Assembly (NCBI GenBank): GCA_900316255.1
Contig: ONCI01000034.1
Location: forward strand, 1-34,054
DNA from: an uncultured Eubacteriales bacterium
Lineage (GTDB): Bacteria; Bacillota; Clostridia; Oscillospirales; Oscillospiraceae
Direction: 5' to 3'
Length of the DNA stretch: 34,054 nt
In this document: piece by piece, positions 1-22,725 of the stretch
Layout: each line of letters begins with the position of its first letter
How positions within the stretch are numbered: the stretch's first letter is position 1
Notes under the pieces: generated by a model
Database searches by the model: none
Seen by the model: the letters and a program-made list of their open reading frames with translations, nothing else
Told to the model about the DNA's origin: nothing
Made by a program: the position numbers and the translations under genes

Positions 1-3000
1 GCCGGCAGCCAGGATCTTGCGCAGGCGCACCAGATCCAGCAGGTCGATCTTGCCGTCGGGATGCAGGTCCGCGCCGGCCTCACTGAACTGACCCTCGATT
101 GGCAGGCCCACAAGATGCTTGCGCAGCACCATCAGATCTTGCGCGTCCAGTTCGCCGTCCATGTTGATGTCGCCCACCTCGATCCACCTGGCCGTCAGGG
201 TGATGTCTTCCGTCACGGGGCTGGCAAAGTCGTACTCCTCGCCGTTCAGCCGCCAGCCCGCGAAGACGAAGCCGTCCTTCGTGGGATCGGCGGGCTTTTG
301 GGCCAGAGCCCCGTCGGCCACGGTCTGGGCCGCCACTTCGCTGCCGCCGTCGGTGTTGAAGCTGACAGTGCGTCCTTCGCCCAGCAGCGCCTCGCCCTGG
401 GCGTTCACGCCAAGGAGCAGGTAGGCAGAATCGCTGGTGAAGTTCTCCGCCGTGCCCTTGCCGGAAAGGCCCCGGGTGAAGACACCGGCCTGATACGCGT
501 CTACGCCGATGGGATCGGCATTGCTCAGGGGGCCGGCAACGGTGATCAGCTGCCCGTCAAAGAGGTAGAGGTTGCTGATTCCTCCCTGCCCCGTGATATC
601 GTTGAAGGTCTTGTTGTCCTTGATGATGGGGCTGCCGGAGAGAAGGAACTCACTGCTGCCCACAAACAGGCCGCCGGACTTGAACTTTGCGGTGTTGCCG
701 CGGATCTCGCCGCCGGAGAGGGTGAAGACGCCGCCGGAAAGGTAGACGCCGGCGGACTCGCCGCCCTGGATCAGGTCGCCGACGGCCTTGTTGCCCTCGA
801 TGCTGCCGCCGCTCATGGTGAAGCTGACGTTGTGGGTCTCGCTGTCGCCAAGGGCATAGACGCCGCCGCCGTACCAGACGGCAGCGTTGCCGCTGATGCT
901 GCCGCTCTCCAGGGTGAAGGCGCCGCCCTGCTCGATGATGACGCCGCCGCCGCTTTGGCTGTTGAAGCCGCCGGTGACGGTACCGCCGCCCACCGAGTCG
1001 ATGATGGTGAGGCTGCCCTTCACGGTGATGACACTGCCGTTCTCCTTGGCCTCGGTGAGGCCGCGGTCCAGCCTGTGGCCCTTGAGATCCAGGGTGATGA
1101 TCTTGCCCGCGGGAATCGCGAGCGCGCTGTCAAGCGCATCGGCCTTTACATCCTTGTCCAGCTCGATGGTGATGCTCTCCTGCGCCGGAGCGTTGTCGAT
1201 CCTCTGCTGCAGGGCCCTCCAGGGCCGGAGCAGCATGGCCTCGCCCGCGCCGTTGAGCTGGACCTCATAACCCTCCTGGTTGCTGGTAAAGCTGGCTGCC
1301 GTGCCCTTTTCGGGCAGACCCTGGGTGAAGACGCCCGGCGTGTCCATGGAGACGCCGATGGGCTTGGTGTTGCTCAGGGGGCCGGCAATGGTGATGAAAC
1401 CGCCCCAGCCTTCATCCGTATAGACGTTATCGGGCCGGTCGGCTGCCGTGTTGTCCGCGATCTCGATGGCGCCGGAGAGCGCCACGCGCGTGGTCGAGTT
1501 GCAGATCCAGATGCCTCCGCCGCAGTCCGTTGCCCGGTTCCCGGTGACCTCGCCTCCGGTCATGACAAAGCTGCCGCAGTAAAGCACAGCCATACCGCCG
1601 CCGTTATCCTTGGAGCCGTTGAGGCAGATCCGTCCTCCCGCCAGGGTGAAGATCCCTTCCTCGATGGCAGCGCCGCCGCCGTCATTCGCCGCTGTGTTGC
1701 CGCGGAGCTCGCCCTCCTTCATGGTGAAGGTGCCGCCGCGCACATAAACAGCGCCGCCGAGGGACTTGGATTCATTGTTGGAGATGCTGCTCCCAAAGTC
1801 CAGCATCTCAAAGCTGCCGTCGCTGAACACGCCGCCGCCGCGGCCCTTGGCCGTATTTTCGAGGATGCCGGTGTCCTTCATGGAGAAGCTGCCTTTCTCC
1901 ATGTACACGCCGCCGCCGCAATCGTCAGAGCTGTTGTTGCTGATGAGGCAGTCCGTATGGACATAGGCGTCCACATATTCCAAATACAGGCCGCCGCCGG
2001 CGCCGCCGGCGCTGTTGCCGCTGATCTTGGTGCGGACCATGTCGAGGGTGCCGTTTTCCATGTACAGACCGCCGCCGTCCCAAGACGCCGTGTTGTCCGA
2101 GATCTCGCATCTGTTCAGGATGATGGTGGCGTTCAGATCATAGTACACGCCGCCGCCCTTGCGGCTGGCTGTGTTGCCGGTGATCTTGCCGCCGTAGAAT
2201 TCAAGGGAGCCGGATACGTTCTGGACCTCAATGCCGCCGCCGTCATTGGCCGCATTGCCGCTGATCTCACCGCCGTACATCTCGAAAGTACCGCCGCAGA
2301 GACACACGCCGCCGCCGTAGGACGCGGTATTGTCGCGGATGACGGCGCCGTCCTTTATGGTGCATACCAGATCGTCATCCTCGAGGGCCAGGCCGCCGCC
2401 TCTGCCGACGGATCTGTTGTTGCGGATGACGCCGCCGCTCATGGTGAAGTCGCCCCCATGCATGGCCACGCCGCCGCCGTAACTGAAGCTGCCCTCGGCA
2501 GTGTTGTCGAAGATCTCGCCGCCGTTCACGGTAAAGAACTGGGTGTAGTCCTCAAAGAGAACGCCGCCGCCGTCCTCTCCGGCTCTGTTGCCGCTGATGG
2601 AGCCGCCGTTCATGGTGCAGCTGCCTTCCCAGGCAAATACACCGCCGCCGCTGCCTTCGGCCCGGTTGCCGCTGATGCTGCCGCCGTTCAGCGTGAGGGT
2701 GGGAGCATCGCCGCCATCCTCCTGCATCAGCAGGATGCCGCCGCCGTCCCTCTTGGTCCAGCCGCCGGTGATCTTGCCGGTCTTTTGTTCAGAGGAGTCT
2801 TCCAGGGTAAGGCTGCCCTTCACCAGGATGACGCCGCCGTTGTCCTTCGCCTCGGTGAGGCCGCGGCTCAGGGTAAAGCCCTTCAGATCCAGGGTGACGC
2901 TCTTGCCCGCGGGCACGGTGAGGACGGCGTCGCTCTCCAGCGCCGTCACATTCCCGGGCAGCTCGATCACGGCAGTCGCCCCGGCCGAGTCGATCTGCTG

Positions 3001-16337: not shown

Positions 16338-16500
16338 GCCTTCCCCTGGAGGGGAAGGTGGCTCGGCCCGATCCCCCGCGAGGGACGAGACGGATGAGGT
16401 GTCATTCTTGCCGCTTCTTCGATGCTGCTTTGGTGCTGCCTGTTCCCACCTCATCCGCCCCAGTTTGCGAACTGGGGCACCTTCCCCTCAAGGGGAAGGC
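16338..16500. repeat. MITE-like palindromic repeat, complete copy
   Basis: The left arm begins with hairpin GCCTTCCCCTGGAGGGG and GAAGGTGGC, passes through CCCGATC and ends in GACGGATGAGGTG near 16402. The right arm, from about 16447 to 16500, repeats the ends in inverted orientation (CACCTCATCCG...CTTCCCCTCAAGGGGAAGGC). The arms share their ends with the half-copy at 21167-21230. It occupies most of the 423-bp gap between two genes and contains no supported gene. Confidence 0.7.
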
Positions 16501-18738: not shown

Positions 18739-19326
18739 ATGAAGCGAAAAGCATTTCTGCCGTTTCTCTTATGCCTGGTTTTTTTGGCCGCCTGCGGAAG
18801 CTCTTCCGCTCCGGCGGCGACGGAGACCGGCGCCCCCTGGCCCAGTCACGCGCCGGAGGCCACCCCCTATGTGCGTCTCCAGGCCGAGGCCGCGGCCCCG
18901 CCCTCCGAAGCGGAGCGGGAAGAGGGGGAGCACTACGACAGCTGGGAAGAGCTGATCCAAAGCATGTATACCGCGGAAGGCGATTTCTACGGCATTGACT
19001 GGGAAATGCAGATGTTCCGGGAGCTGCCCCAGGACGAGCCCTTTGCCTTTGTGGTCCACACCGCCGCCATGCTCCAGGGCGCGGACAGCCTGGAGGACCA
19101 CATCGCCCTGGCGCAGAAATTCATCGACCTGGGCTGTGAGGCCAAAGTGAAGGAGATGTACAGCGTGGAGCAGGGGCAGGTCTATACCGGCTGGGCAACC
19201 GTCATCATCACCACCCCCGCGCACATGTGGGAAATCAGCGAAAGTCTCGGCGAGCAGATTTTCCTCGAGCAGCTGTACGAGAGCGTGGACATCCGCTTTG
19301 ACAAAGTGGTCTGGCCGGAGACCTGA
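18739..19326 (+). CDS. Lipoprotein of the second ECF operon
   Basis: A 195-residue lipoprotein: charged start MKRKAF, hydrophobic stretch LPFLLCLVFL, lipobox LAAC, then a Ser/Ala/Pro-rich linker to about residue 70. The mature domain (about 75-195) is mixed alpha/beta, includes FAFVVHTAAMLQGADSLED and ends FDKVVWPET. I do not recognise a named family. AAAGGAG lies about 8 nt before the ATG at 18739; an in-frame ATG at 18712 would place charged residues before the signal and lacks a ribosome site. The sigma gene starts 10 nt after the stop, so it is the first gene of the operon and may be a sensor or target at the cell surface (inference). Confidence 0.75.
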   Translation: MKRKAFLPFLLCLVFLAACGSSSAPAATETGAPWPSHAPEATPYVRLQAEAAAPPSEAEREEGEHYDSWEELIQSMYTAEGDFYGIDWEMQMFRELPQDEPFAFVVHTAAMLQGADSLEDHIALAQKFIDLGCEAKVKEMYSVEQGQVYTGWATVIITTPAHMWEISESLGEQIFLEQLYESVDIRFDKVVWPET

Positions 19327-19336
19327 GGAGACGGCG

Positions 19337-19897
19337 ATGAACGATGCAAAACTGCTGCGCCGCTTGCGGCGGGGCGACGAAACGGTGCTGCCGGAGCTGA
19401 TCCGGCAATACAGCGCCTATGTCTACACCATCGCCTCCAACATCCTGTCCCATGCCCTGGGGGAGGAGGATATCGAGGAAGTGGTTTCCGATTCCTTTCT
19501 CAGCCTCTGGGAAAACCGGGAGCACATCGAAACGGAAATGCTCAGGGCTTATCTGGCGGCCATCACCCGCAACAAGGCGAAATCCGCCCTGCGGAAGGCC
19601 CGGGCGGAAGAGCCTCTGGAGGATGACCTGATCCAAATCAGCATCCCCAATCAGCCGGAACGGAAGATCCTGCTGTCAGAGCTGCGGGACATCACCCGCG
19701 CCGCCGTGGATTCTCTCGGCGAGCCGGATCGGGAGATCTTCCAGCGCTACTATTTTCTTTACCAAAAGACCGGGGACATCGCCCGGGCCCTGGGTCTGAA
19801 GGACGCCACCGTCCGGGTGAAGCTGGCCCGTGGGCGCAAGCGCCTGAAAGACTACCTGGAAGAAAGGGGGTTTGGCTGTGAAGACACGCATTTCTGA
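19337..19897 (+). CDS. ECF-type sigma factor (second system)
   Basis: A 186-residue ECF sigma factor. Region 2 includes EEDIEEVVSDSFLSLWENRE and the AITRNKAKSALRKAR helix. Region 4 includes GEPDREIFQRYYFLYQKTGD and the helix-turn-helix LGLKDATVRVKLARGRKRL. The ATG at 19337 has GAGGAG 7 nt upstream, 10 nt after the lipoprotein stop. The next gene begins 20 nt before this one ends, so translation is coupled. It is clearly distinct in sequence from the sigma factor at 14616. Confidence 0.88.
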   Translation: MNDAKLLRRLRRGDETVLPELIRQYSAYVYTIASNILSHALGEEDIEEVVSDSFLSLWENREHIETEMLRAYLAAITRNKAKSALRKARAEEPLEDDLIQISIPNQPERKILLSELRDITRAAVDSLGEPDREIFQRYYFLYQKTGDIARALGLKDATVRVKLARGRKRLKDYLEERGFGCEDTHF

Positions 19898-20699
19898 TCT
19901 TGTGGCGGACTGTTGTCCCGCGGAGGTCGATCTGGGCAAGCCCGACGAAGCGCTGGCCCTGCGCATCACCGGCAAAGTCCGGGAGCGCCTGGGCGCAGAA
20001 GCGGCGCCGCCGCACAGGCGCAGCAAGCTGCCTCGCGCTTTCCTGCTGGCAGCTGCGCTGGTGCTGGCCTTCGGCACAGCGGCCTTTGCCCTTGCCGGGT
20101 ACGGCATGAATCTTAGAAAGCCCGCGGCGGAGGATCCGCTGGTTTCCGGCTTCCGCTATGAGGAAGTGGTGGACGGCAAGGTCTGGAACAGCGAGATCCT
20201 GACCTATCCCGACGCCGGCATGGTCTTCACCTTCTCCTGTCCGGAGGAGAGCTCTCATGCGGCGGAGTTTCGCTGCTTCTGGCTGCCCAGGGAGGCCACC
20301 GAGGGCCTCACCGACGAAGAGGGCTGGACCAAACGGCTCTTCTGCGACACGGGAAGCCGCATCCCCTATTGCATTGAAACCTGCGAAACCATCCGCGACG
20401 GCTCCCAGCGCGTCATCAACGGGGATGTGGAAGTGATCAAGGAAGAGCACTGGGACAGCTGGAAAGTCCTCGAACTGAGCTCCGATTATACCAAGCTGCC
20501 CATTTCCGCCTATGACCGGGCCAATTATATCCTGCTCTTTGACGAAAGCCGCGGCTTTCTGGTGGTGATCTCCGGCGAAGAGGAGCTGGAGACCCTGGAG
20601 CATATCGCCCGGGAGATGGAGATCCGGGAAAGCGAGGAGCCCAAGTTTGTATATCCGGGATCCTCCGGGATCGGCATCCTCGACCTGGGAAGAGGATGA
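19878..20699 (+). CDS. Membrane anti-sigma candidate of the second system
   Basis: A 273-residue protein with the same layout as the first anti-sigma: a cytoplasmic N-terminus of about 52 residues (MKTRISDLVADCCPAEVDLG...), one membrane helix at about 53-75 (RAFLLAAALVLAFGTAAFAL) and an exported domain of about 195 residues. The start is GTG at 19878, set by AAAGGGGG 7 nt upstream; a TTG at 19872 is too close to that site. It overlaps the sigma gene by 20 nt. I do not recognise the exported domain. A hairpin (20675-20681 with 20692-20698) lies at the stop codon. The anti-sigma role is inferred from topology and gene order. Confidence 0.72.
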   Translation: MKTRISDLVADCCPAEVDLGKPDEALALRITGKVRERLGAEAAPPHRRSKLPRAFLLAAALVLAFGTAAFALAGYGMNLRKPAAEDPLVSGFRYEEVVDGKVWNSEILTYPDAGMVFTFSCPEESSHAAEFRCFWLPREATEGLTDEEGWTKRLFCDTGSRIPYCIETCETIRDGSQRVINGDVEVIKEEHWDSWKVLELSSDYTKLPISAYDRANYILLFDESRGFLVVISGEEELETLEHIAREMEIRESEEPKFVYPGSSGIGILDLGRG

Positions 20700-20715
20700 A
20701 AGGACGAAAGACCAT

Positions 20716-20894
20716 GCGCTTAAGTAAACGATGATTAAATCGGCAAGAGCGAATCCCGAGAGAATTTGAGTTCTGATGAAGGCACTTTTTCGCAGGAATA
20801 CTTTGTGTATTGCAAGAAAATGTCCGGGAGGCGCCGAAGGCGATTTGATCAGCGTTTACTTAACGGCAGGGAGCGATCCCTGCCGGTTTTTTTG
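20716..20894 (+). ncRNA. Structured non-coding RNA of unknown class with its own terminator
   Basis: The ends pair perfectly for 11 bp (20720-20730 with 20853-20863). A second, 10-bp helix follows (20733-20742 with 20841-20850, one G-U), making a closing stem of about 21 bp interrupted only by a 2-by-2 internal loop. Inside are TCCCG/CGGGA (20754-20758 with 20825-20829), a small hairpin (20761-20764 with 20771-20774), an apical hairpin (20797-20801 with 20807-20811) and a GCC-GAA-GGC triloop (20833-20841) that would compete with the last pair of the second helix. The closing stem abuts a terminator. I cannot assign it to a known class. No promoter is obvious, so it may be processed from the upstream ECF operon transcript. 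Confidence 0.65.
20864..20894 (+). terminator. Terminator of the structured RNA / second ECF operon
   Basis: A perfect 9-bp stem CGGCAGGGA/TCCCTGCCG with a GCGA tetraloop, then G and seven T residues. Confidence 0.88.
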
Positions 20895-20913
20895 TTCTTC
20901 CCGAAGCTATGTG

Positions 20914-21055
20914 CTTCCCCCAGCGGGGGAAGCTCCCTCCAGTGCGCACACTGGAGGGTGATGAGGGAGAACGCCGGATCTTTTCCATCCGTGAGGAATA
21001 CGGTTTTTCTCCCTCACCTGTCAGCTGCGCTGACATCCTCCCCCGCTGGGGGAGG
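20914..21055. repeat. Palindromic intergenic repeat
   Basis: Left hairpin CTTCCCCCAGCGGGGGAAG (20914-20932) and right hairpin CCTCCCCCGCTGGGGGAGG (21037-21055) are near-inverted copies. They bracket two further hairpins (CCAGTG/CACTGG near 20940; TCAGC/GCTGA near 21021). No gene is supported inside. Confidence 0.6.
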
Positions 21056-21166: not shown

Positions 21167-21230
21167 GCCTTCTCCTTGAGGAGAAGGTGGCTTGCCCCGA
21201 TCTCACGGGAGGGGGAAGACGGATGAGGTG
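21167..21230. repeat. Palindromic repeat, half copy of the 16338 family
   Basis: It starts with GCCTTCTCCTTGAGGAG then AAGGTGGC, passes through CCCCGATCTCACGGGAGG and ends GACGGATGAGGTG. The order and spacing match the left arm at 16338, with compensating changes in the hairpin. Confidence 0.65.
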
Positions 21231-21540: not shown

Positions 21541-22725
21541 ATGCCTGCGCCCAACAAATACCGGAAGACCCTGCTGGCCTGCTACCTGGGCTTTGTGACC
21601 CAGGCGATCACGGCGAACTTCGCGCCGCTGCTGTTTTTGACCTTCAAAAGCAGCTATGCCCTGACGCTGGAGCAGATCTCCGCCATCCCGCTGGTCTTCT
21701 TTTTTACCCAGCTGCTGACAGATCTGGCCGCGGCCAGATTCGTGGACCGGATCGGATACCGCCGCTGTGTGGTAGCCTCCCAGCTCCTGTCCGCCCTGGG
21801 CCTCATGCTGCTGGCCCTGCTCCCGGAGCTGCTCCCCGCCCCGCTGACGGGGATCCTGATCGCCGTGATCCTGTACGCCGTCGGCTCCGGCCTCGTCGAG
21901 GTGCTGATCAGCCCCATCGTGGAAGCCTGCCCCTTTCCAAACAAGGAGGGGATGATGAGCCTGCTGCACTCCTTTTACTGCTGGGGCTCGGTGGGCGTGA
22001 TCCTGGGCTCCACCCTGTTTTTTGTGCTCTTCGGTCTGGCGCGCTGGCGCATCCTGGCCCTGCTCTGGGCGGCTCTGCCCTTTGTGAACGCCTTCAACTT
22101 TCTCCGCTGCCCCATCGAACGCCTGGTGGATGAGGGGGAGAGCATGGGGATCGCGGAGCTCTTTCGCAGCCCGCTCTTCTGGCTGCTGGCCCTGCTGATG
22201 GTCTGCTCCGGCGCCTCGGAGATCTCCATGTCCCAGTGGGCCTCCGCGTTTACGGAATCCGCCCTCGGGGTGAGCAAGACCGTGGGCGATCTGGCGGGGC
22301 CCTGCCTCTTCGCCGTTCTGATGGGCCTGACCCGGGTCTTCTACAGCAAAAACAGCGCGAAGCTGGACCTGACAAGGCTCATGCCGGCCTGCGCTCTGCT
22401 CTGCATCGGCTGCTATCTGCTGGCGTCTCTCGCCCCCTGGCCGATCCTGGGTCTCACGGGCTGCGCTCTCTGCGGCGTCTCCGTGGGCGTCATGTGGCCG
22501 GGGACCCTCAGCATTTCGGCCCAGCGCTGTCCCCGGGGCGGCACCGCCATGTTCGCCCTCCTGGCCCTGGGCGGCGATCTGGGCGGCTCCCTGGGCCCTG
22601 CCCTGGTGGGCGCCGTTTCGGGAGCTGCGGGCGGCAGCCTGAAGCCCGGTCTCCTGGCCGCCGCGGTCTTCCCGGTGCTGCTGATCGTTGGCCTCCATCT
22701 TCTGAAAAGATCCGCCAGGCCCTGA
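21541..22725 (+). CDS. MFS transporter
   Basis: A 394-residue, twelve-helix major facilitator superfamily protein. The loop between helices 2 and 3 carries DLAAARFVDRIGYRRC, a form of the MFS A-motif. A central hydrophilic loop (CPIERLVDEGESMG) divides the two six-helix halves. The substrate is not readable; the general look resembles sugar/FucP-like or drug-type MFS. The ATG at 21541 has AAAGGA upstream and follows its promoter by 33 nt; longer in-frame starts run back into repeat DNA. It is followed by a weak GCATCGCC/GGCGATGC hairpin near 22747-22776 and appears to be transcribed alone. Confidence 0.85.
   Translation: MPAPNKYRKTLLACYLGFVTQAITANFAPLLFLTFKSSYALTLEQISAIPLVFFFTQLLTDLAAARFVDRIGYRRCVVASQLLSALGLMLLALLPELLPAPLTGILIAVILYAVGSGLVEVLISPIVEACPFPNKEGMMSLLHSFYCWGSVGVILGSTLFFVLFGLARWRILALLWAALPFVNAFNFLRCPIERLVDEGESMGIAELFRSPLFWLLALLMVCSGASEISMSQWASAFTESALGVSKTVGDLAGPCLFAVLMGLTRVFYSKNSAKLDLTRLMPACALLCIGCYLLASLAPWPILGLTGCALCGVSVGVMWPGTLSISAQRCPRGGTAMFALLALGGDLGGSLGPALVGAVSGAAGGSLKPGLLAAAVFPVLLIVGLHLLKRSARP

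Follow-up and report, generated by a model that had tools for sequence, protein, structure and literature searches.

A damaged miniature transposon copy between an anti-sigma gene and a terminator in an Oscillospiraceae genome, and the conserved structured core of its family

The window analysed here, a stretch of 34,054 nucleotides covering positions 1 to 34,054 of contig ONCI01000034.1 from an uncultured Eubacteriales bacterium (family Oscillospiraceae, assembly GCA_900316255.1), raises a simple question: what is the strongly folding segment at 20716-20894, lodged between a sigma/anti-sigma operon and a terminator? A sequence-only reading had described it as an elaborately folded RNA without an assigned class, which could be a stand-alone transcript or a processed product of the operon's mRNA and possibly of a 6S-like design. 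The fold itself is beyond dispute, with -74.6 kcal/mol compared with -46.7 +/- 3.7 kcal/mol for 200 dinucleotide shuffles (z = -7.46), none of which equalled the real sequence. We are highly confident that 20724-20859 is a copy of a miniature inverted-repeat transposable element (MITE), i.e., a non-autonomous transposable element. Taken as a whole, our account is that of a damaged MITE copy, most likely moved by IS5-family transposases and carrying a structured core that may act as RNA, and we consider this account very likely. The features of the copy and its surroundings are the following.

20724-20859, plus strand: MITE copy of 136 bp, delimited by alignment with an intact copy from the same genome and by full-length relatives
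20720-20723, no strand: left target-site duplication TTAA, from the sequence and the family-wide duplication counts
20860-20863, no strand: right target-site duplication TTAA, on the same grounds
20724-20742, plus strand: left terminal inverted repeat GTAAACGATGATTAAATCG, inner limit approximate
20841-20859, minus strand: right terminal inverted repeat GTAAACGCTGATCAAATCG, inner limit approximate
20743-20843, plus strand: structured core, damaged, from a covariance-model match
20792-20816, plus strand: conserved apical hairpin GCAGGAATACTTTGTGTATTGCAAG, whose 19-nt centre is present 25 times in the same genome
20820-20821, plus strand: junction of a 23-nt internal deletion, from alignment with the intact copy
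20864-20892, plus strand: intrinsic terminator, outside the element (stem at 20864-20885 found by scan, T tract read from the sequence)

Aligned with the intact copy, the window copy shows one 23-nt gap (between 20820 and 20821) and four mismatches, two of which fall within the duplication. Full-length relatives measure about 159 bp (158-162 bp for most of the full-length representatives) and have inverted ends of about 20 bp. The deletion takes out the 3' arms of the inner helices, and the core covariance model scores the window core at 58.9 bits, as opposed to 143.9 bits for the top-scoring copy in that genome. Part of the interior pairing noted earlier is a re-folding of this damaged copy, which is probably inactive and without function where it sits.

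The 11-bp end-to-end pairing that the sequence-only reading took as the closing helix of an RNA is real, joining TTAAGTAAACG at 20720-20730 to CGTTTACTTAA at 20853-20863. Its interpretation fares less well: the outer 4 bp are the TTAA duplication and the rest is terminal inverted repeat. Compensatory changes in relatives, which that reading had proposed to look for, were found in both RNAalifold and class-wide core alignments; in the outer stem, however, they cannot separate RNA pairing from transposon ends, because this stem consists of duplication and terminal repeat. What emerged is the very outcome that the reading had set against its own proposal, namely a transposon-derived repeat: a dispersed, multi-copy element with target-site duplications.

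Searching with 20700-20895 brings up 22 matches at E <= 1 within the own genome; of 60 related genomes, 20 have a best match at E <= 1e-9 (at E <= 1 the tally reaches 49 of the 60, many of these being weak matches near E = 1 that we do not count as copies). Allowing up to 3 mismatches, we find the 19-nt central part of the apical hairpin at 25 sites in the own genome (2.7 Mb), compared with 0 for a reversed control. Named genomes contain exact hairpin matches in at least 119 stretches, and the 80 titles among the matches listed name Clostridia-type or Bacillota genomes, for the most part assemblies from gut and rumen. One intact copy gave no match in plasmid and phage collections; among viral contigs, the hairpin turned up in a single one.

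Placing the ends by the inverted repeat alone, we count perfect 4-bp duplications in 38 of 98 elements but in only 3 of 294 control flanks, and permuting the right flanks yields a mean of 5.9 and a maximum of 12. This count replaces an initial one of 60 perfect duplications among 169 copies, in which ends had been picked partly by the duplication. The family combines terminal inverted repeats, a target-site duplication and numerous scattered copies that are too short to encode a transposase, as a MITE does. The commonest duplications are TTAG (10), TTAA (10), TCAA (6), and CTAA (4). Each of these four holds a stop codon on one strand, which could make insertion at gene ends harmless.

IS5 elements favour YTAR targets. 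PF01609 transposases are present in 22 of the 61 genomes of the genus, where 30 loci were scanned for MITE-like ends. Two of them, L225 (1223 bp) and L222 (1135 bp), are complete IS5-family elements with TTAA duplications and ends similar to those of the MITE, their transposases matching NF033581 at 4.3e-88 and 1e-97, respectively. Across the genus, the ends of IS5-family elements match or resemble those of the MITE, the end type of the window being matched by similar, not identical, ones. The core is contained in neither L225 nor L222; the only match is a weak one, from the end of L225 and of L241.

What lies between the ends is conserved in its own right. RNAalifold on 28 hand-picked relatives predicts 54 pairs, 39 of which show changes on both sides. 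For the core model, 40 of 47 representatives were aligned (seven with odd or uncertain ends were left out) and 26 of 27 core sequences went in, giving 124 positions and 35 pairs. The model matches 32 of 291 genomes of the class, belonging to 23 of 181 genera and 13 families (counted from the table), and 2 of 199 genomes in a sample of the phylum, both of the own family. The 32 class-wide matches have 93.9% of cells paired versus 61.8% when shuffled, and 76 such matches (70 distinct) have 94.0% versus 66.0% shuffled and 35.5-50.3% slid, with both-side changes in 34 of the 35 pairs and 670 such cells versus 183 in the 76, all of these being alignments fitted to the model, which inflates the pairing figures. 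The internal loops and the apical hairpin are also conserved in sequence. Covariation shows the core to be a module of about 124 nt that on one strand forms a long rod whose internal loops are conserved and whose apical hairpin hardly varies.

In agreement with the sequence-only reading, which had left the fold unassigned, the window has no match at gathering score in Rfam 15. Searching the same release with 10 loci containing relatives (E <= 2) gave no element match near the gathering score, and 20 class-wide loci gave no element match and one tRNA only. The suggestion of a 6S-like RNA fell at this point, with neither a 6S nor a raiA model among the five implausible Rfam matches that the region gave at E <= 10. 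A hammerhead ribozyme, hinted at by CTGATGA at 20773-20779, was rejected as well; this string is not kept in other copies and brings no Rfam match.

The core and the ends evolve separately, with the core kept inside several types of terminal repeat. The 2926 element pairs include 279 whose cores are at least 85% identical, and in 131 of these 279 the ends are at most 60% identical; conversely, pairs whose ends are at least 85% identical have cores that go down to 53%. The end types include GTAAACGATGATTAAATC, GGCAACACCGCATAATG, GGAAGCGCTGATTAAATC, GGAACCTCTGAATAAATC, GCCTTGTTTGATAAATGG, and GAGCCTGTTCATAATC.

A second element type of roughly 250-300 bp, found in distant Clostridia, also carries the core. 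In these distant families, inverted ends enclose 202-299 bp, starting far upstream of the core, in 34 of the 55 loci with enough flank. Altogether 68 loci were tested, of which 13 were too near a contig edge, one had no ends, and 20 were scored as single; some of the latter took an inner helix for ends (L270, L325, and perhaps L317), so that the larger elements number at least 34. A search with the core model in 68 of the 69 class-wide loci (L268 was left out) reveals a second core head-to-head with the first, on opposite strands and with abutting 5' ends, in eight of the 68: L270, L291, L294, L316, L324, L325, and L331 at E <= 0.001, and L323 at E 0.13. Larger elements are often bordered by TA, and for these the duplication and the end are inseparable because TA is palindromic. 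A PF13358 (IS630-type) transposase, as a partner of the larger elements, was found in none of 10 genomes. As regards sizes, contigs C10, C20, C26, C47, and C115 of genome G021 hold the same terminal repeats in pairs about 226 bp apart, which would be either another size class or elements that carry an insert.

The fold also has a preferred strand. Of the 169 copies, 77 were selected for their length and ends, and all 77 fold better on the same strand, by -22.4 kcal/mol on average. For the core alone, the strand difference is -15.5 kcal/mol (again 77 of 77), whereas control windows give +0.7 kcal/mol with a standard deviation of 8.4. Consensus folds of the two strands differ likewise, with -59.9 versus -34.7, -82.8 versus -47.8, and -20.8 versus -11.6 kcal/mol for groups of 34, 9, and 34 sequences, the automatic fold being poor for the most mixed group (class C, 34 sequences).

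How would such an element make its living? The single-core elements are most likely mobilised in trans by IS5-family transposases that act on their terminal inverted repeats. The core would be transcribed along with the element, and its RNA might then bind a host protein or nuclease, whereby the element spreads or its insertions are tolerated. That the core works as RNA when transcribed, binding a host protein or nuclease to the element's benefit, is an idea we find nearly, if not quite, as credible as its negation. In the window, the element would simply have landed between the anti-sigma gene and the terminator. More tentatively still, the family may be a mobile RNA module. A noncoding RNA would then travel through the class Clostridia between the ends of various DNA transposons and exchange these ends over time; it would exist in a single-core form with IS5-like ends and a 4-bp duplication as well as in a form of roughly 250-300 bp that can contain two head-to-head cores, and it would bind a host factor to aid the spread or tolerance of its carriers. 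If this holds, two head-to-head cores would let one fold correctly whichever way the element is transcribed, and the family would be a bacterial counterpart of short parasitic elements that exploit other transposons.

Critically speaking, several observations weigh against this account, besides the inflation of the pairing figures. A perfect duplication is absent in 60 of the 98 elements, and the own genome yielded no full IS5 partner, the search there returning only a fragment below the cut-off. Two of the 35 model pairs often fail (36 and 24 of 70 rows are unpaired). The scan of 20400-20900 gave no promoter-like site, as the sequence-only reading had also remarked. Orientation relative to neighbouring genes shows no sense bias, the left gene lying on the same strand in 16 and on the opposite strand in 15 of 31 scorable contexts (called with a crude open reading frame (ORF) caller, and leaving out the 36 of 77 elements that overlap a called ORF), which disfavours a role in host mRNAs. 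Lastly, in the terminal repeats, too, G-T exceeds A-C, by 59 to 10, and the wobble test lacks a clean control.

This last point bears on the main rival, in which the fold acts as single-stranded DNA during replication or transposition, like integron attC sites or the ends of IS200/IS605, and no RNA is involved. We judge it improbable, while giving it more room than any other alternative. The mobile-element setting suits it, as does the unbiased orientation to genes, and the two head-to-head cores of some elements would provide one for each DNA strand. On the other hand, at core pairs that are mostly Watson-Crick, G-U exceeds A-C by 108 to 10 (A5) and by 28 to 4 (A3), more than this rival leads one to expect. 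The excess supports RNA over single-stranded DNA but does not prove it, and it is not decisive because of the 59 to 10 seen in the terminal repeats.

Far less room is left for a MITE with a functionless interior, whose symmetry would stem from terminal repeats and shared ancestry. The terminal repeats alone do explain the outer stem, and some copies, the one in the window included, are internally deleted. Yet inner pairs covary across matches in 13 families, the core is kept around differing ends, and the IS5 elements found are without it; moreover, all 77 full-length elements fold better on one strand, although 72 of them had not been picked for structure. Already disfavoured by these results, this reading is very unlikely.

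Domestication of the window copy, or of the whole family, as a cis-regulator of neighbouring genes is even less probable. In two species of one genus, a copy is kept beside the same gene (L287:1501-1622 and L295:1501-1622), which is presumably that of triosephosphate isomerase, the neighbours having been named from sequence by recall. Both copies are antisense to their neighbouring genes, however, the orientation of the family is mixed, and the window copy is damaged. The least probable of all, a small RNA of the sigma/anti-sigma operon, whether stand-alone or derived from its 3' part and possibly 6S-like, has the position between gene and terminator and the strong fold in its favour but is refuted as the origin of the element by the dispersed copies, the duplications, the internal deletion, the missing 6S or raiA match, and the fact that in none of nine other orthologous loci (those with the best scores among the matches that 36 of the 61 genomes searched gave) does the element directly follow the gene. 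In L306, an element end does occur further downstream of the anti-sigma gene, in the opposite orientation.

MITEs are usually regarded as transposon debris. In this family, the conserved part is the interior, with a strand-specific fold and compensatory changes, in a class that is common in mammalian guts, and the family is of more interest than the window copy itself. Two questions are raised: what a transposon gains from the core module, and which host protein recognises it. The core is a candidate for a new Rfam family, no family of Rfam 15 having matched here. There is also a warning for those who mine gut genomes, as an intergenic "novel structured RNA" may be a mobile element and its outer stem merely a terminal repeat.

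Among known systems, Correia, ERIC, and BOX elements are small, palindromic, dispersed, and folded in transcripts, a likeness by description only. IS5-family MITEs share ends that resemble IS5-family elements of the genus and the same kind of 4-bp duplications; the difference here is an interior that is no remnant of the IS5 elements found and a conserved core that goes with several end types. Judging from the descriptions in the sources cited, the nearest documented kind is bcr1 with its related repeats, which are likewise short, dispersed, of the mobile type, similar in size, and predicted to share a common fold; for Bcr1, a length of 167 bp and a common structure (P 0.99) are listed (PMC2267715). 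As described, bcr1 has TTTAT-linked ends and belongs to the B. cereus group (PMC6542083), whereas our element has TTAG, TTAA, TCAA, or CTAA duplications and occurs in Clostridia, with IS5-like ends and a core common to different ends; the two are set apart by description, not by sequence. A conserved RNA family tied to a transposon has a precedent in the RAGATH-18-derived RNAs of IS607 TnpB (PMC11061315). As portrayed there, these work with the TnpB protein, whereas our element has DDE-type ends, no Rfam match and, as a further point against an RNA role, no identified protein partner. No description of the element was found by title and abstract start in the open-licence PMC literature.

As for the neighbourhood, the upstream gene at 19298-19897 encodes a sigma factor of the ECF (extracytoplasmic function) type (Pfam Sigma70_r2 and Sigma70_r4_2), and its partner at 19872-20699, read as the anti-sigma gene, has no Pfam match. 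A strong terminator does abut the fold, the scan placing a terminator-like site with a 9-bp stem, a 4-nt loop, and a T tract at 20864-20885; by eye, this terminator is not conserved beside other copies. At L110 (about 2225-2279, minus strand), the apical hairpin lies, again by eye, within a terminator-like stem with GC-rich arms and A/T runs, and no transposon ends are recognisable there. The next plus-strand gene, which we read as an MFS_1 protein gene with its ATG at 21541, begins about 650 nt beyond the terminator, in line with the earlier view that the segment is not a leader. Between the terminator and this gene lie two further dispersed repeats. For 20910-20970 (within 20903-20971), a second contig of the same genome (L031) has a copy at 100% identity; the one at 21167-21230 recurs at 83% at 16338-16401 of the window and elsewhere. 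Some MITE copies sit, as judged by eye, inside palindromes that resemble the repeats at 20903-20971 and 21167-21230.
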